Shown here piece by piece: positions 7,033-14,112 of a DNA stretch of 26,031 bases (positions are counted from its first letter, which is position 1; the number at the start of each line of letters is the position of its first letter). This stretch comes from a virus. The stretch covers positions 1 to 26,031 of IMG/VR virus record IMGVR_UViG_3300024417_000004, one strand, 5' to 3'. The notes beneath the pieces were generated by a model that worked only from the letters and a program-made list of their open reading frames with translations, was not told where the DNA came from and ran no database searches. A program made the position numbers and the translations under genes.

Positions 7033-7334
7033 ATATACGTTCAGAGTTTTAAGAGACAGTGATAATCGGAGACGACATCAGAACTATTAGTACAAAAGTA
7101 GCCCTTGGTTGTGATCACAGAGAGATGATCAAGGGCTACCCAGCTTTAGAAAAGCAGCCTGCCCCTAGAGACAGGCTGCTAAACCAAGTAACAATACAAT
7201 AACAACACAATCAAACCGTAACGACCCGACTGTAAAAAACAGTATGTGTGTCAAAGGTATACCTGTCAATAACAATTTAGATATTTTTGGACTCAAGTGA
7301 GTCTGAACAACAAGAACCAAGTAATAATAACAAA
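7033..7334 (+). other. Structured intergenic region ahead of the Ubl gene
   Basis: It contains no gene. Two perfect stem-loops lie in tandem: GTAGCCCTTG (7098-7107) with CAAGGGCTAC (7130-7139), and AGCAGCCTG (7153-7161) with CAGGCTGCT (7172-7180). Neither is followed by a T-run, so they could be processing or RNA-stability structures as well as terminators. A small ACTGT-AAAAA-ACAGT hairpin and an AT-rich stretch (ATTTAGATATTTTTGG) follow before the Ubl ATG at 7335 and could hold a promoter. Confidence 0.6.
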
Positions 7335-7568
7335 ATGGAAGAAAACATCACAGTAACCCTCCGCTACGGTCTCACTAACACAGTAACCCGCAGCTTCCCA
7401 GAAGATACTACAGTATCTGACATCCTCGCAGACCGTTCAATCCTTGCAGCACTGTCCGCTCCCGAATCAGTATCAGCCGTAGCCAACGGCGTTACTCTTG
7501 ACGGATCAAACATGCTTCACGGCTTAGGTACTATTACACTGGAGCAACAAGCCTCCAGCAAAGCGTAA
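7335..7568 (+). CDS. Ubiquitin-like (beta-grasp) small protein, Ubl
   Basis: This is a 77-residue protein whose order of segments fits a beta-grasp fold. A first hairpin is ITVTLRYGLTNTVTRSF (residues 4-20), then EDTTVSDILAD leads into a helix to about 38, and strands follow around VSAVANGVTLD and GTITLEQQ. The pattern FPxxTTVxDIL followed by VxAxxNGVxL resembles ThiS/MoaD/Ubl-type and PRTRC-C-like proteins. The C-terminus is LEQQASSKA, not Gly-Gly, so either the conjugated residue differs or the tail is trimmed. I prefer the ATG at 7335 (AATAACAAAATG) over a TTG at 7287, whose extra 16 residues are low-complexity. E2-like, E1-like and JAMM genes follow, which makes a conjugated modifier the best reading. 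A terminator separates it from them. Confidence 0.7.
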   Translation: MEENITVTLRYGLTNTVTRSFPEDTTVSDILADRSILAALSAPESVSAVANGVTLDGSNMLHGLGTITLEQQASSKA

Positions 7569-7617
7569 GTAGTACCGTCCTAAGCAAGACATGAAACTGC
7601 TTCCTCTTTTGTGTTAT

Positions 7618-7637
7618 CGTATACGTGCGTGTATACG
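7618..7637. promoter_or_regulatory. Palindromic element CGTATAC-n6-GTATACG
   Basis: A perfect 7-base inverted repeat with a 6-base spacer lies between the Ubl stop codon and the terminator. It could be a protein-binding operator or part of an RNA structure that modulates read-through into the enzyme genes. Confidence 0.4.
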
Positions 7638-7646
7638 TCGTGTGTA

Positions 7647-7678
7647 CCTGTCGTCTCTCCGTGAGGCGGCAGGTTTTT
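7647..7678 (+). terminator. Intrinsic terminator between Ubl and E2-like genes
   Basis: CCTGTCGTCTC (7647-7657) pairs with GAGGCGGCAGG (7663-7673) with two G-U pairs and a five-base loop, followed directly by TTTTT. It ends 14 bases before the E2-like ATG. Partial termination here would give more Ubl transcript than enzyme transcript. Confidence 0.8.
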
Positions 7679-7692
7679 ACCTTTAACTTACT

Positions 7693-8580
7693 ATGAATAA
7701 TCCACATCAAGAATACGTATTAAATGCCGACGGCAACTTCTACAAACGCACAGTCCTTGAGACAGTTGTGTGTGACCAAGAAGAAGCTATGGCTACTATC
7801 AAAACAAAGCCTTTGTTCTTCGTAAACAAGTTTACAAAGTCTTTTACAGTCGAATCCGAACTAACAGGTGGTGCTAAAAAATACAACATGTACTCAGCCA
7901 ACCACATCTCACCAACAGGTAACTCTCCTATTCAACTGTCCTTTGTAGAAGCACCTTACTTCTACTTCAGAGGTGCAAATATATTTTGCAGACGCCGTGG
8001 AGAAGAGTTCCCCGAACATTACAAGCTACACATCCCTCATCAAAACGATTCACCGCTTGAAGAATCACCAACACTCAAAGTTAAGAGTGCTGATGAACTA
8101 CAAAACCAAGTTCGCTGGCAACCATCGCTCGACGGTTTACGACTGTTTTTCATGTTCAGCCATTCTAAGCACCCATATAATGACTCTTTCTTAATTACAG
8201 CGCAGTCAAGCCCTTATGTCTTTGTATACGATCCCGTAACAAAACAAAGTTATGCACCACACCTAGCAAACGTTTTCGATCGCGGAGACATCTGCACAGG
8301 AGATACGTTTCCAGACAGTGCAAATAACTTTGAAAACATAGAAAACGACGACTTGCTTGGCTTAATTAAAAGAAGCATGCTGCACCTAAACACATCCCGC
8401 TGCAACAATGACTTACGTGCTGACCTACAGCTGGAAGCTGAAAACCTTAAGTTTGACGAAACAGGTAACAGCATCCGTGTACTGACTAGTGAAGGTGTAC
8501 CCAGCAAATCTAGTTTCTATCAACCAATTAACCACGACTCAATATTGAGCTTTACAACATGGCTGAACCAACAAACATAA
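7693..8580 (+). CDS. E2-like (PRTRC-B-type) conjugating protein, putative
   Basis: This 295-residue protein resembles PRTRC system protein B, which has been linked to the E2 ubiquitin-conjugating fold. The core lies at about 150-230: strands around LRLFFMFS and SSPYVFVYDP, then the segment APHLANVFDRGDICTGD, which corresponds to the E2-type 'HxN ... G.iC' active-site region. Cys201 (codon 8293-8295) is the candidate catalytic cysteine. The N-terminal 140 residues (KPLFFVNKFTKSFTVESE, PIQLSFVEAPYFYF) are beta-rich and typical of the PRTRC-B N-terminal region. The next gene starts 22 bases before its stop. The fold call is from motif reading plus gene context. An alternative is a PRTRC-B-like protein without E2 activity. 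Confidence 0.65.
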   Translation: MNNPHQEYVLNADGNFYKRTVLETVVCDQEEAMATIKTKPLFFVNKFTKSFTVESELTGGAKKYNMYSANHISPTGNSPIQLSFVEAPYFYFRGANIFCRRRGEEFPEHYKLHIPHQNDSPLEESPTLKVKSADELQNQVRWQPSLDGLRLFFMFSHSKHPYNDSFLITAQSSPYVFVYDPVTKQSYAPHLANVFDRGDICTGDTFPDSANNFENIENDDLLGLIKRSMLHLNTSRCNNDLRADLQLEAENLKFDETGNSIRVLTSEGVPSKSSFYQPINHDSILSFTTWLNQQT

Positions 8581-8885
8581 CAGACGCACTCCAAGATTGT
8601 CGAACCTCTATTCACCGATGGCACGAAAATCCATGGGAGTTTAGTCGTAATGACTTAGAACAGCTACACTCAGTACTACCTGGGAGAGAAGCAAAACATT
8701 TAGATACACATCCAATCGATCACGGACTCGACAAAGATGATCTCCGCATCTTATTCAAAATCCTTGCAAAAGATCTTCCTGAGTGTGGTCGTAAGCGTGG
8801 TGCAATACTTCGCTACATTGACGCATACAAACAACCAAAACAAGAACTAGGTAAGAACCTATACAGATTCTTAAAATCAAAATGA
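8559..8885 (+). CDS. Unrecognised small protein inside the Ubl-conjugation cassette
   Basis: This is a 108-residue, mostly helical, basic protein. It has a His/Trp-rich N-terminal half (SIHRWHENPWEF, His37, His47, His51, His55) and a C-terminal helix with DDLRILFKILAKDL and GAILRYIDAYK. It has only two cysteines (14 and 76), so it is not a RING-type E3. It overlaps the E2-like gene by 22 bases and the E1-like start by four (ATGA), which ties its synthesis to both. Position between E2 and E1 suggests an adaptor, a substrate receptor or a regulator of the pathway. The family is unknown. Confidence 0.7.
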   Translation: MAEPTNITDALQDCRTSIHRWHENPWEFSRNDLEQLHSVLPGREAKHLDTHPIDHGLDKDDLRILFKILAKDLPECGRKRGAILRYIDAYKQPKQELGKNLYRFLKSK

Positions 8886-9598
8886 AACCAAAACTCAACG
8901 CAGTAATTATCGGTGCAGGCGGCGTAACCAGCTACATGCTACCAGCTCTTAAAAACAGCTTCGACCTAACAGCTACTATCATTGACGGTGACAAACTTGA
9001 GAAACACAACCTTGACCGCCAGCTGTTCCGAAACAATGCAGTCGGACAGTACAAAGCAGTAGCATTACTCAAGCAGTACAACTTTCGTAAGAACGAAGGT
9101 CACGCTGTTCGAGAATACTTCAGCGAAGACATGCTCAACACCGAGTACAAAATATTCTTTGCTGATGCTGACGTATACATCTGCGCAGTAGACAACCATC
9201 CAGCTCGCAAAGCTGTACTGGCTGCAGCTAAGAAGTACAATAAACCCGTTGTTATATGTGCTAACGAGTACCACACAAGTCAGGCGTTCTACTACGACCC
9301 GTCGATGGAGTACGACTTCCCAATGATCGATCCAATCGCTCGCTACCCTGAGATTGCCACAGACAAGTCAGGCAGCCCAATCAGCTGTCAGGGTCTTGCG
9401 CTTGAGTCAGACCCACAACTTGCCATTGCAAATCAACTTGCAGCAAGCTTTGCCAACTACCTATTATGGTCTTGGCTCGGTATTCCTGCGCAACCCGATC
9501 TGCTGCCTTACATGCCTATCGAGTTTCAAAGTACATTCTCTCGTATGCAAACAATCACAGTTGAAGACTTAAAGAACATCGAACAAAAAGCATCATGA
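8882..9598 (+). CDS. ThiF/E1-like Ubl-activating adenylyltransferase
   Basis: This 238-residue protein is a minimal E1-like domain. The Rossmann glycine loop is AVIIGAGGVTS (GAGGV at 11-15). DGDKLEKHNLDRQLF carries Asp35/Asp37, Asn43, Arg46 and Gln47 of the adenylation site. Lys58 (GQYKAVAL) and Asp104 (CAVDNHPARK) complete the set typical of the family. Cys169 in SPISCQG is a candidate thioester cysteine. It would adenylate the C-terminus of the Ubl and pass it to the E2-like protein, or directly to a target. The closest named family is the PRTRC ThiF protein. It overlaps its neighbours by four bases on both sides (ATGA), a classic coupled arrangement. Confidence 0.85.
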   Translation: MKPKLNAVIIGAGGVTSYMLPALKNSFDLTATIIDGDKLEKHNLDRQLFRNNAVGQYKAVALLKQYNFRKNEGHAVREYFSEDMLNTEYKIFFADADVYICAVDNHPARKAVLAAAKKYNKPVVICANEYHTSQAFYYDPSMEYDFPMIDPIARYPEIATDKSGSPISCQGLALESDPQLAIANQLAASFANYLLWSWLGIPAQPDLLPYMPIEFQSTFSRMQTITVEDLKNIEQKAS

Positions 9599-10797
9599 AC
9601 CAAGAACAAATAATCTACGAAAACAAGTTATACAACGAAGTAAACACTGACTTGTTTACAACGTATCAAGAAGTAGAAACATTCTCTACAGAAAGCATTA
9701 CTCCTGTATTCAAAGGTGCTAAGATTCCACGTCACATGTGGAAAAACATCTTAGCCTTCATGAAACAATCATATGATCAGTTCAAGTCAGAAACACTAGT
9801 CTATCTGTTCTATGACGAAAAGTCCAAAACACCTTGGGACTGGTGGGTTCCCCCGCAAGAAACCGCAGGCATGACTGTTGAATCCTCACCCGAAGATCCA
9901 AAGTACCAAGAACAACGTAAGTTGTATTCAGACACCATGTTCGGCACTGTACACCATCATTGCTCTACATCAGCGTTCCAATCTGGTACTGACGAAGCCG
10001 ACGAGGTCAACCGAGAAGGTATCCACTTTACCGTTGGTCATATGGACAACGAAGAAGGATTTGACATACACTGTCGTATCACAATCGGTGGTTGTCACGC
10101 AGAGATCGACGCTGGTACTTACATTGAACAGGCTGGAGACCCGTTCAAAAAGACTGCAGCAATACCCGATCAAATGAAACAAGAAATTACAAAGTACTTG
10201 CATACAAAAGACATTGTAAATTTAAACCCAGACTATAAAAAAATCCCGTTTACTCAAATGAGTAACGTAACCAAAAGAACCTACACAGTAAAATCCTATA
10301 AAAATAAATACCCAACACAATTAGGTTGGAACTACGGCAACCACGAGTTATCGGCAAACTGGTACGACCACAACATATCAAAAAAAAACCAAACAGAAGA
10401 AATGGTAGAATGCGCAAGTGATTCTGAACTCACAGGGCATGACGCCCTAGCAGATGAACTAGTGAATTTAATCCAAACAGACTATGAATACGAAGACATT
10501 CTTATCAAGTATTATGATTACATCGGCGATAATGCAAGCAGCTGCCAAGTGTATACAGGGAAAATGCAAAACACAAGAATTGCAAAAGACCTTAAAGCAC
10601 TGTACGATAACAACAAGTTCCTTAGCTCAGAAGAAGGCAAAGAAGCTCTTATCCTCACTAAGGAATTCTTATTCGATTGGGCAAAAGGCAACGGACTTGA
10701 CACAACCATCAACGACCTCAAGTATGGACTCGGAGAGTTACAGTACTATGAAGACGGAGAAGGAATTCAATCAATGGTTACGGAGGATGTTTTATGA
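9595..10797 (+). CDS. JAMM/MPN+ (JAB) metalloprotease with C-terminal extension, putative deconjugase
   Basis: This 400-residue protein carries a complete JAMM zinc site: His120-His-His122, seven residues, then Ser130-Gly-Thr-Asp133 (HxHx7SxxD), with Glu66 in SETLVYLFYDE as the upstream acid. Residues 1-190 form the JAB domain (GIHFTVGHMDNEEGFDIHCR, CHAEIDAGTYI). Residues about 190-400 are unrecognised, mostly helical and acidic. JAMM proteases cleave isopeptide or peptide bonds after ubiquitin-like tails, so it would recycle conjugates or trim the Ubl precursor. In PRTRC cassettes the A protein is the JAB member. The gene starts on the E1 stop (ATGA) and its end overlaps the nuclease gene by 50 bases. 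Confidence 0.82.
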   Translation: MNQEQIIYENKLYNEVNTDLFTTYQEVETFSTESITPVFKGAKIPRHMWKNILAFMKQSYDQFKSETLVYLFYDEKSKTPWDWWVPPQETAGMTVESSPEDPKYQEQRKLYSDTMFGTVHHHCSTSAFQSGTDEADEVNREGIHFTVGHMDNEEGFDIHCRITIGGCHAEIDAGTYIEQAGDPFKKTAAIPDQMKQEITKYLHTKDIVNLNPDYKKIPFTQMSNVTKRTYTVKSYKNKYPTQLGWNYGNHELSANWYDHNISKKNQTEEMVECASDSELTGHDALADELVNLIQTDYEYEDILIKYYDYIGDNASSCQVYTGKMQNTRIAKDLKALYDNNKFLSSEEGKEALILTKEFLFDWAKGNGLDTTINDLKYGLGELQYYEDGEGIQSMVTEDVL

Positions 10798-11146
10798 AAA
10801 TATTCCTACTAAATGCCTTGTACAACGTATCGAGAATACTACGTCTAATGGCATCCCTGACATCATGGTTATCCTTCCAAATCGAATGGTGCTTGTTGAA
10901 AGCAAGTTTGAAACTAAAAAGATTCGACCAGAACAGGCTGCCTTCCAAATCAAAACCAACTCCATTATCAAAGACTCCCTCAACACCTGCATCACCCTCG
11001 CAGCCTACCCAAAAACCAACAGGTTTATAATGCTGCGCTTTGATACTGGATCTATCACAGAAGAAGGTATAAAATGTGAAAGCGAAGTAGTCTTTTCTCT
11101 CGACAAAGATGGTTTTAACGACTTTCTTAACTACATAACTTTATAA
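10748..11146 (+). CDS. VRR-NUC family nuclease
   Basis: This 132-residue protein shows the PD-(D/E)xK signature of VRR-NUC proteins: NGIPDIMVIL (Asp38), a strand, then MVLVESKFE (Glu51, Lys53), followed by RPEQAAF with the family's conserved Gln63. The acidic residues at the N-terminus (TEKEF) fit the first helix. Such single-domain phage nucleases act on branched or damaged DNA (Holliday junction or structure-specific). I chose the ATG at 10748 (MKTEKEF); an ATG at 10724 would add eight residues. It overlaps the JAMM gene, so it is co-translated with the Ubl cassette and could be a partner or just the next replication gene. Confidence 0.8.
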   Translation: MKTEKEFNQWLRRMFYENIPTKCLVQRIENTTSNGIPDIMVILPNRMVLVESKFETKKIRPEQAAFQIKTNSIIKDSLNTCITLAAYPKTNRFIMLRFDTGSITEEGIKCESEVVFSLDKDGFNDFLNYITL

Positions 11147-12024: not shown

Positions 12025-13819
12025 CTGGCGACCTCCTGCACAGCTACCAAAGTTCGACAAAGTCATTGCCATTGACTTAGAAACCTGCGACCCCAACCTA
12101 AAGAAAAGCGGACCCTCTTACAAACGAGGAGAAGGTAAAGTAGTTGGCATTGCTATTGCCGACGAGCATCAACAAGTTTATCTACCCATCGACCACCAAG
12201 GTGGTGACAACCTAGACAAAAAGCTAATATGTCACTACGTACAAAGCGTAATCAACGAAAGTACTGAGATACTATTTGCAAACGCAGCCTATGACCTAGG
12301 CTGGCTCGCTATCCTAGGCATGACAATTAACTGCCCAGTGCGAGACGTACAGATTGCAGAAGCATTGATTGACGAAGAACAGTTCTCATACAGCCTCAAT
12401 AATCTATCTAAGAAATACCTCAAGCGTACTAAGTTTGAAGACAACCTGAAGAAAGCAGCAGAAGCCTATGGAGTAGACCCCAAGGGTGGTATGTGGAAGC
12501 TACCAGCACGTCACGTAGGCGAGTATGCCGAGATAGATGCTCGTAACACTTGGGACATATACCAGCACCAAAAGCCTGTCCTACAAGAACAAGACTTGTG
12601 GACTGTATGGGAAATGGAGTGCAAGCTCACACCCGTACTTGTCCACATGACAATGAAAGGTGTACCTGTTAACGTCGACGGCGCTGATAAATTAAACGAA
12701 GAACTCAAGACAAAAGAAAAACAACTAAAACATCACTTCTCTGACCTAGACATCTGGTCTCCTGTACAACTAGCAAGGCATATCGAAAAGCTAGGCTTTA
12801 TCGTACCTAAGACAGAAAAAGGCAATCCTTCCGTAGATAAAGACTTCCTAATTAACTGCGACCACCCTGAAATTAAACTAATTCATGAAGCAAGAAGCAT
12901 TAACCGACTCCGAAAAGTCTTTGTTGAAGACATCATTCTCAACCAAAATTATAAAGGACGAATCCACGCAGACTTCAAACAGGTTGCATCGGACTCTGGT
13001 GGCACTCGTTCAGGGAGGTTATCTTCATCCAACCCAAACATGCAACAAGTCCCTAAGCGAAGTGATATCGGTAAAGCTATCCGAAGTCTCTACGTTGCAG
13101 AACCAGATACACTCTGGTGTAAAGCAGATTACAGTTCACAAGAACCACGACTCCAAGTACACTACGCACTCCTCGGAGAATTTGGACAGCCCCTGCCTAA
13201 AGCAGTACAAGCCAAAGAAGCATTCAAGCGAGGAGAAAAGCTATACACGTTCTTTGAAAAGACCACAGGACTCCCTTACGATACCTGTAAAATGTTATGT
13301 CTAGGTATCAGTTACGGTATGGGTATGAAGAAGATGGCAAAAACGCTCAACATATCTGAAGAAGAATGCAAAGCTACTATGCGTAAATTTAACAGCGAAG
13401 CGCCATTCCTAAAAGTCTTGTTTGATAACGCAATGAACGTTGCAAGCTCTCGTGGTTATATCAAAACAATTATGGGACGCAGAGCACGATTTGACTTCTG
13501 GACACCAAGCTTTGAAGAGAAACCAGTAAAAGGATACGGTCCAGCCAGAGGAAAGTACCCAGACAAACCACTCCAACGTTCTTTTACAAGTAAAGCACTA
13601 AACAGGCTTATTCAAGGAAGTGCGGCAGACCAAGCAAAGAAAGCTATGATTGACGCTTATGATGCTGGTTTTGACATGCGTTTGCCAGTACACGATGAGA
13701 TCAACGCTATGGTTACTTCAGAAAAAGAAAGTTTAGACTTGAAGTTGATCATGGAAAATGCTATACCGCTCAAAGTACCAGTTATTGCCGATATTGATCT
13801 CGGTCCTACTTGGTGCTAA
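11939..13819 (+). CDS. Family A DNA polymerase with 3'-5' exonuclease
   Basis: This 626-residue protein is the replicative polymerase. Exonuclease motifs are intact: Exo I AIDLETCD (Asp46, Glu48), Exo II FANAAYDLGW (Asp119) and Exo III YAEID (Tyr196, Asp200). Polymerase motif A is KADYSSQEPRL (Asp397, Glu402), motif B is KMLCLGISYG (Lys451 to Gly460) and motif C is PVHDEINA (His585, Asp586, Glu587). No 5'-3' exonuclease domain is present. In motif B the residue equivalent to E. coli Phe762 is Leu455. The start is the ATG at 11939, inside the endolysin gene; ATG 11945 is a near alternative. It heads a dense replication operon. Confidence 0.95.
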   Translation: MIMQNDLFQIPRSEKPALDLPPVMQPKSNWRPPAQLPKFDKVIAIDLETCDPNLKKSGPSYKRGEGKVVGIAIADEHQQVYLPIDHQGGDNLDKKLICHYVQSVINESTEILFANAAYDLGWLAILGMTINCPVRDVQIAEALIDEEQFSYSLNNLSKKYLKRTKFEDNLKKAAEAYGVDPKGGMWKLPARHVGEYAEIDARNTWDIYQHQKPVLQEQDLWTVWEMECKLTPVLVHMTMKGVPVNVDGADKLNEELKTKEKQLKHHFSDLDIWSPVQLARHIEKLGFIVPKTEKGNPSVDKDFLINCDHPEIKLIHEARSINRLRKVFVEDIILNQNYKGRIHADFKQVASDSGGTRSGRLSSSNPNMQQVPKRSDIGKAIRSLYVAEPDTLWCKADYSSQEPRLQVHYALLGEFGQPLPKAVQAKEAFKRGEKLYTFFEKTTGLPYDTCKMLCLGISYGMGMKKMAKTLNISEEECKATMRKFNSEAPFLKVLFDNAMNVASSRGYIKTIMGRRARFDFWTPSFEEKPVKGYGPARGKYPDKPLQRSFTSKALNRLIQGSAADQAKKAMIDAYDAGFDMRLPVHDEINAMVTSEKESLDLKLIMENAIPLKVPVIADIDLGPTWC

Positions 13820-13830
13820 TCAAATACAAT

Positions 13831-14112
13831 ATGCAAGATACAGAACAAGACATACTAGAAGAAGCCCTGAGTATCACTCAAGGCGACCGACAAGAGGACT
13901 ACGGAGACTGCAAAGTAGAGTTAGAGAGAGTTGCCACACTGTGGTCAGTAATCTTTAACACTACAGTAAACGCTAATCAAGTAGCCCTCGCAATGATTGC
14001 CTTAAAAATGACAAGGCAGATGAACAAAAACAAAAGAGATAATTGGGTTGACATTGCAGGTTATGCAAGAGTCGGCTATATCGCAACAAAACCAAATAAT
14101 AACAATGACTGA
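13831..14112 (+). CDS. DUF6378-like small phage protein
   Basis: This 93-residue helical protein matches a common phage family. The motif EALSITQGDRQEDYGD is followed by ATLWSVIFNTTVNANQVAL, ALKMTRQMNKNKRDNWVDIA and GYARVGY. This is the layout of DUF6378-type proteins found next to nucleotide or DNA metabolism genes. The fold resembles all-alpha NTP-pyrophosphohydrolase (MazG-like) proteins but key acidic residues are not clearly all present. The ATG at 13831 (AATACAATATG) is preferred to a TTG at 13810. Its stop overlaps the next start by eight bases. Confidence 0.7.
   Translation: MQDTEQDILEEALSITQGDRQEDYGDCKVELERVATLWSVIFNTTVNANQVALAMIALKMTRQMNKNKRDNWVDIAGYARVGYIATKPNNNND

Follow-up and report, generated by a model that had tools for sequence, protein, structure and literature searches.

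A phage-borne ubiquitin-like gene cassette, related to but distinct from the PRTRC cassette, in the replication region of a marine phage lineage

We analyzed a virus record from IMG/VR (IMGVR_UViG_3300024417_000004; 26,031 bases, referred to here in its entirety as the window) derived from an uncultured bacterial virus. At positions 7335 to 10797, the plus strand carries five adjacent genes (Table 1), encoding a ubiquitin-like modifier (Ubl), an E2-like protein, an accessory protein (ACC), an E1-like adenylating enzyme, and a JAMM metalloprotease. Judged by sequence, this is a phage-borne ubiquitin-like cassette that is related to the PRTRC cassette of plasmids and distinct from it, and its parts are well supported. 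The window also encodes a portal or head-tail adaptor, terminase, polymerase A, primase, helicases, and an exonuclease and thus represents a tailed phage, whose polymerase is nearest, among cultured phages, to that of Pelagibacter phage HTVC023P (40% identical). An earlier note on this DNA had placed five plus-strand open reading frames (ORFs) here, with overlaps of 4 to 22 bases among the last four genes. All five ORFs were confirmed in the window, the overlaps are 22 bases (E2/ACC), 4 bases (ACC/E1), and 4 bases (E1/JAMM), and the residues that it had singled out (i.e., GxGG, NxxRQ, K58, and C169 of E1, C201 of E2, and HxHx7SxxD of JAMM) are real and invariant or nearly so in relatives. The mechanical ORF of the Ubl gene opens at a TTG codon (7287), and we preferred the ATG at 7335, near which most relatives start. 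The gene order, which the same note had suggested seeking in other phages, recurs in dozens of IMG/VR contigs, and codon comparisons revealed purifying selection in the E1, Ubl, and JAMM genes; a chance origin is therefore excluded.

Table 1. Positions of the cassette genes and of the hairpin in the Ubl-E2 gap
Feature	Window positions	Strand	Description
Ubl (ubiquitin-like modifier)	7335..7568	+	77 aa, ATG 7335; C-terminus ...ITLEQQASSKA
Intrinsic-terminator-like hairpin and T run	7646..7674	+	Ubl-E2 gap
E2-like protein	7693..8580	+	295 aa; PRTRC_B homology, AlphaFold2 model
ACC (accessory protein)	8559..8885	+	108 aa; no family match
E1-like adenylating enzyme, ThiF family	8882..9598	+	238 aa; PF00899; putative catalytic Cys169
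JAMM metalloprotease, putative (residues 1-185), and C-terminal domain (186-400)	9595..10797	+	400 aa; TIGR03735 PRTRC_A match

The E1-like protein is, by its sequence, a member of the E1/ThiF superfamily, as it contains the Rossmann GxGGxG motif, the Arg-Gln pair, the Lys and Asp residues, and the predicted catalytic Cys that define these enzymes. It matched Pfam ThiF (PF00899; E = 8.7e-16; 58.2 bits against a cut-off of 28.1), and its best NCBIfam match was PRTRC_ThiF (TIGR03736; E = 1.3e-13), at 50.8 bits and thus below the 144.75-bit cut-off of that family. A profile comparison with PRTRC ThiF gave an E value of 6.8e-26, where mismatched, unrelated pairs used as controls gave 0.05 or worse. 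The GxGG motif, N43-x-x-R46-Q47, K58, and C169 are invariant or nearly so in 63 distinct sequences. Cys169 aligns to C184 of Escherichia coli ThiF and C187 of E. coli MoeB, and the paired zinc cysteines of these two proteins are absent from the aligned phage enzyme. In the E1 tree, one branch sets apart all of the phage proteins and another all of the PRTRC proteins (support, 100/96); E. coli ThiF and MoeB fall in neither group.

No family match to the Ubl sequence was found in profile library searches. The AlphaFold2 model of this protein, built with 47 relatives (pLDDT, 91.7), follows a beta-beta-alpha-beta order, and its C-terminal tail is loose (pLDDT of about 67 over the last 7 residues). 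Its matches in the PDB were Caldiarchaeum ubiquitin (with an Rpn11 homologue), ISG15, SUMO, and BAG6 (Foldseek, 2.7e-4; VIA Z, ≤10.2), and the model strongly supports a beta-grasp fold with a flexible, exposed C-terminus. Only three columns (G12, K76, and A77) are invariant in 47 aligned sequences. All marine Ubls end exactly in Lys-Ala and many distant ones continue for 1 to 30 residues, a pattern that suggests a processed C-terminus; the PRTRC_C proteins end in Lys-Gly or Arg-Gly, with tails in 2 of 11. In type II CBASS (cyclic oligonucleotide-based antiphage signaling system), cGAS carries a conserved Gly or Ala as its last residue, a system ending in Ala conjugates, and a Gly-to-Ala change lowers conjugation without abolishing it (PMC10097602). 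Since cGAS conjugates through either residue, the Ala end of the phage Ubl is compatible with conjugation.

The E2-like protein is conserved mainly around a cysteine: N193, C201, G203, D240, and L241 are invariant in 54 sequences (N238 in 53 of them), and most of these relatives share only 12 to 48% identity with the window protein. A profile comparison related it to PRTRC_B (5.8e-7). Direct searches scored below the family cut-offs, with 12.6 bits to Prok-E2_D (PF14460; cut-off, 25 bits) and weak PRTRC_B (TIGR03737) matches in 3 of 20 phage contigs, none above the cut-off. Its AlphaFold2 model (pLDDT, 91.5; pTM, 0.83) was placed by a second-look structural alignment closest to Ubc13, another Ubc13, and a Toxoplasma E2 (Z, 4.3 to 4.4), followed by TSG101-UEV; CapZ chains came close behind these rows (Z, 3.9), and the E2 (UBC) fold is therefore likely on the basis of the model but not established. 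A similar fold was found in BFVD for a phage protein of unassigned function (A0A6J5NI06), and sequence searches of the PDB with the E2-like, JAMM, and ACC proteins gave nothing useful. Asn238 stands, as read by eye across two alignments, where most PRTRC_B proteins have His; a conserved downstream His in E2-like proteins was described by Iyer et al. (PMC1779556). A second candidate cysteine (Cys237) was kept in the first 19 relatives and lost in distant ones. The replaced His and the weak fold scores would suit an E2-derived binder that does not itself work as an E2, with E1 handing the Ubl straight to the target; we consider this improbable, because Cys201, N193, and G203 have stayed invariant across such divergence, as expected of a catalytic cysteine and its surroundings.

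In the fifth protein, E66 and H120-x-H122-x7-S130-x-x-D133 are invariant in 68 relatives, and this metal site (E plus HxHx7SxxD) identifies it by sequence as a JAMM/JAB protein and a putative protease. Its first 185 residues matched PRTRC_A (TIGR03735) in a hidden Markov model search (4.5e-5; 23.1 bits, below the cut-off of 101.8) and in a profile comparison (4.5e-7), and residues 186 to 400 form an extra domain outside the PRTRC_A profile. The JAB protein of type 6d operons (Iyer et al.) has an N-terminal domain with a conserved Arg and Trp; before residue 41 of the phage JAMM protein, no such pair occurs among the conserved positions, and the domain limits are uncertain. ACC consists of a variable N-terminal half and a conserved, basic part (residues 57 to 108; GRKRGAILRYI), and we propose that it acts as an adaptor. 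No sequence link was found between ACC and PRTRC E or F, SAP-like domains, or other known domains, and a resemblance of GRKRGAILRYI to SAP motifs had no Pfam support.

Of the identities assigned in the earlier note, those of the E1-like protein (ThiF family, C169 matched to the ThiF and MoeB cysteines), the 77-residue beta-grasp Ubl (a ubiquitin fold by model, with ubiquitin, SUMO, and ISG15 as structural matches), and the JAMM protein (invariant metal motif, PRTRC_A homology) hold. The E2-like identity is supported as well, with PRTRC_B homology and an invariant Cys201 in its favor and modest fold support. Its remarks that the cassette resembles PRTRC cassettes and lacks the PRTRC ParB gene were also correct, the former by the profile comparisons and the latter because a ParB-family gene (TIGR03734) occurs in none of 20 phage contigs of 37.7 to 57.9 kb, which may be incomplete. 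The PRTRC plasmid cassette (A, B, C, E, F, ThiF, and ParB; operon type 6d of Iyer et al. [PMC1779556]) likewise holds a stand-alone Ubl, an E2-like protein, a JAB protein, and a ThiF-type E1 in one operon. The phage E1, E2, and JAMM proteins are distant homologues of its ThiF, B, and A proteins, respectively, and the Ubl of both cassettes has a C-terminal Lys followed by a small residue and, in some cases, by a tail. In contrast, every phage cassette protein scores under the PRTRC cut-offs (for PRTRC_C, TIGR03738, none of 16 records matched at E ≤1), the phage cassette has neither an E nor an F homologue, and its gene order differs. The phage Ubl ends in KA rather than KG, and the conserved C-terminal Gly of type 6d Ubls is replaced by a Lys-Ala that is invariant in 47 sequences; the phage E2 has Asn238 in place of His, the phage JAMM protein has an additional C-terminal domain of about 200 residues, and the phage E1s form a separate clade.

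Resemblances to other systems are more limited. Bil (bacterial ISG15-like) and Bub systems contain a set of Ubl, E1, E2, and JAB proteins. The phage cassette shares this set and gave only a marginal BilD match (0.034); Bil and Bub are bacterial defense operons, whereas the phage cassette lies in a phage genome beside replication genes. Type II CBASS has E1, E2, and JAB activities in Cap2 and Cap3 and likewise conjugates through a C-terminal Gly or Ala, but Cap2 is an E2-E1 fusion that conjugates cGAS, whereas the phage enzymes are separate and accompany a beta-grasp Ubl. The E1-E2 models of PADLOC matched the phage E1 through its ThiF domain only and the other four proteins had no match, and the cassette was classified as neither Bil nor type II CBASS. 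Tail assembly proteins I and K of phages lambda and T1 (PMC1779556) also are phage-encoded Ubl and JAB (JAB/NlpC) proteins; they have a C-terminal Gly, lie in a tail gene cluster, and occur with neither E1 nor E2, in contrast to the full E1-E2 set in the replication region described here. In the open-access literature, we found no paper on such a phage cassette; subscription papers lay outside the search.

The membership of the E1 in the ThiF/MoeB superfamily, with its matching cysteine, also fits a sulfur transfer pathway, in which the Ubl would be a ThiS-like carrier charged by E1 and released by JAMM and the E2-like protein would be some other thiol enzyme; sets of JAB, E1, and Ubl genes do occur in sulfur operons (PMC1779556). 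Such a role is very improbable, as the annotated part of the window contains no sulfur-metabolism or rhodanese gene, an E2-like protein with an invariant Cys is always present, and the structural matches of the Ubl are ubiquitin, SUMO, and ISG15.

A terminator-like hairpin in the gap between the Ubl and E2 genes was detected by a strict scan in 26 of 51 distinct gaps, whereas shuffled gaps gave an expectation of 0.9 (maximum, 3) and random windows of the same loci gave 1.1 (maximum, 3) per 51; the same scan of the minus strand of the gaps gave 7. The hairpin sequences differ between groups and are unrelated in the distant ones, indicating that the position, not the sequence, is kept. In PRTRC plasmids, 2 of 10 loci have a terminator-like hairpin after the Ubl gene. 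The simplest meaning is that more Ubl than enzyme would be made, and the recurrence of a hairpin at this position is a new observation of the present study. Upstream of the Ubl gene (7097 to 7183), two strong intergenic hairpins were seen by eye, the second followed by a minus-strand T run.

Searches of IMG/VR matched 19 contigs with the E1 protein, 27 with the E1 profile, and 76 with the JAMM profile; some loci represent one contig counted twice, and the loci are thus not all independent. With iterated profiles, the Ubl, E2, E1, and JAMM genes were found on one strand and in the same order at every locus not cut off upstream. In marine relatives, ACC is present as well, placed between E2 and E1. 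A distant group (L085 to L102; contigs of up to 57.9 kb) has a different small gene in the ACC slot, and most of its members have one or two additional genes between E1 and JAMM. One such additional gene family, X2, occurs in L086 to L100 (e.g., L087:7284-7934) and is duplicated in L100; its product has a conserved stretch resembling APxNPxxRxxLLxxLKxPVPExxDTFExIKxWIE and an acidic C-terminus, and no relatives of it were found. As candidate relatives of ACC or of PRTRC proteins, X2 and the ACC-slot protein of the distant group (S2) showed no detectable link. A human gut phage scaffold (MT835919.1) carries distant JAMM and E1 genes together with a weak match to E2, and the gene order differs; on long branches, its E1 groups with that of a cyanobacterial plasmid.

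When the polymerase was used as an independent query, all 41 relatives at least 68% identical and with enough upstream DNA carried the cassette (at least E1 and JAMM where the contig is cut); the cassette is thus core to the marine lineage rather than cargo. At lower polymerase identity, L176 (51%) has the cassette and L170 (58%), L180, and L181 (both 38%) do not; a suspected insertion in the L170 polymerase proved to be an artifact of joined matches. Among the cultured phages in INPHARED, there was no full cassette match and no significant E2 match, and none of the 25 annotated genes around the HTVC023P polymerase is labeled as a cassette gene.

Downstream of the cassette, the marine group has genes for a VRR-NUC domain protein and a lysozyme-like protein and then the polymerase operon (polymerase, primase, and helicases), and the distant group has RecT, an exonuclease, and a helicase. 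In both groups, these neighbors point to a location among the early or replication genes. One whole cassette lies near an N6 methylase gene in a 125-kb contig of a Limisphaerales metagenome-assembled genome (MAG; L119:6916-20438), about 1 to 2 kb from Wadjet JetD/C/A and an SngC-like helicase. Terminase searches of the genome behind this contig gave no match, and this copy may therefore be bacterial or element-borne, or a binning artifact. The Wadjet neighborhood, together with the protection of bacteria by related machinery (PMC10097602), would accord with a role in defense or superinfection exclusion, the cassette shielding the host of the phage from other phages in the manner of Bil and type II CBASS. 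We regard this as decidedly improbable: the marine cassette is constant beside replication genes and not variable cargo, no effector gene accompanies it, and the MAG contig may be an integrated phage or a binning error.

To compare rates of change, we used mainly the window and L002, for which dS, the synonymous divergence, is 0.13 to 0.20 and similar across most genes; this equality speaks against the E2-ACC region having been imported recently. E2 and ACC have ratios of nonsynonymous to synonymous divergence (dN/dS) of 0.49 and 0.51, respectively, compared with 0.027, 0.046, and 0.04 for E1, Ubl, and the polymerase, respectively. All 15 ACC changes fall within residues 1 to 54, the E2 changes cluster at residues 52 to 57, 116 to 138, 158 to 172, and 208 to 218, and 25 of 28 JAMM changes are in residues 186 to 400. 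We read the fast-changing parts as target-facing surfaces of writer and eraser around a fixed chemistry. Because the E2 loops, the N-terminal half of ACC, and the C-terminal domain of JAMM change fast and E1 and Ubl are almost fixed, we consider a variable host protein the most likely target. The earlier note had suggested that the cassette might modify a phage structural or replication protein, tag a host defense protein, or counteract host Ubl-based immunity; the fast change speaks for a target that itself changes. The same conjugation chemistry might instead act on a replication, recombination, or virion assembly protein of the phage itself, as a regulator of its life cycle, which would agree with the core status of the cassette (41 of 41) and with its position adjoining the replication and recombination genes named above in both groups. 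We hold this to be unlikely, since fast E2 loops and a fast ACC N-terminal half beside so slow a polymerase are unexpected if the partners are only conserved phage proteins, and the replication genes differ between the two phage groups.

Taken as a whole, the cassette would form a phage pathway of conjugation and deconjugation, core to the marine lineage and probably acting on a variable host target. We favor this explanation with moderate confidence and rate conjugation alone above it. In the pathway that we infer, E1 would adenylate the C-terminal Ala of the Ubl (...SSKA) and hold it as a thioester on Cys169, from which it would move to Cys201 of E2, with Asn238 replacing the usual His; E2 and the ACC adaptor would transfer it to lysines of the target. 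JAMM would remove the Ubl and, in lineages with a short tail after Lys-Ala, also trim its precursor, and the terminator behind the Ubl gene would keep the tag in excess over the enzymes. The host target would be tagged early in infection and thereby disarmed or redirected. The replication or recombination neighbors in two phage groups and the copy near Wadjet in a bacterial MAG are in line with this pathway. Several observations weigh against it. The Ubl has no sequence link to PRTRC_C (hhalign, 0.19), and ACC matched no known family or structure in profile and PDB sequence searches. The PRTRC_B match of E2 spans only 36 columns around the cysteine, Foldseek alone returned nothing significant for the E2 model, and the best Ubc13 match is weak (Z, 4.4; 117 aligned residues; root-mean-square deviation, 4.3). 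The selection contrast is based mainly on one close pair, relaxed constraint could have caused the E2 and ACC changes, and core status would be expected equally if the cassette served the growth of the phage itself. A stronger form of the proposal, in which the pathway is indispensable to the virus, tags host proteins early, and engages the host target in an arms race through the recognition surfaces of its writer and eraser, is offered tentatively, as something rather less than an even prospect. Bacterial Ubl conjugation has so far been known mainly as a weapon against phages, and a core phage pathway would reverse the roles, with the virus writing and erasing the tag. With five small genes, a Lys-Ala end instead of Gly-Gly, and Asn substituted for His, the cassette would also provide a simple system for E1-E2 conjugation and for the roles of PRTRC genes.

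Further observations concern the surrounding genomes. The gene for the VRR-NUC protein (a phrog_93-like endonuclease; window 10484 to 11146) overlaps the 3' end of the JAMM gene, and L085 likewise has a VRR-NUC-like ORF downstream of JAMM. A short protein encoded at window positions 13810 to 14112 matched PHROG families labeled phosphofructokinase; this label may be wrong, since HTVC023P has an annotated endonuclease gene in the same place after the polymerase. The 56,243-base record that holds L088 (L185 to L187) is bounded by an exact direct terminal repeat of 23 bases and contains an ORF of 2055 residues, and the majority of its large proteins had no PHROG match. A 19-kb contig binned as a Sneathiella MAG (L113) represents a phage of the window's type and hints weakly at an alphaproteobacterial host.

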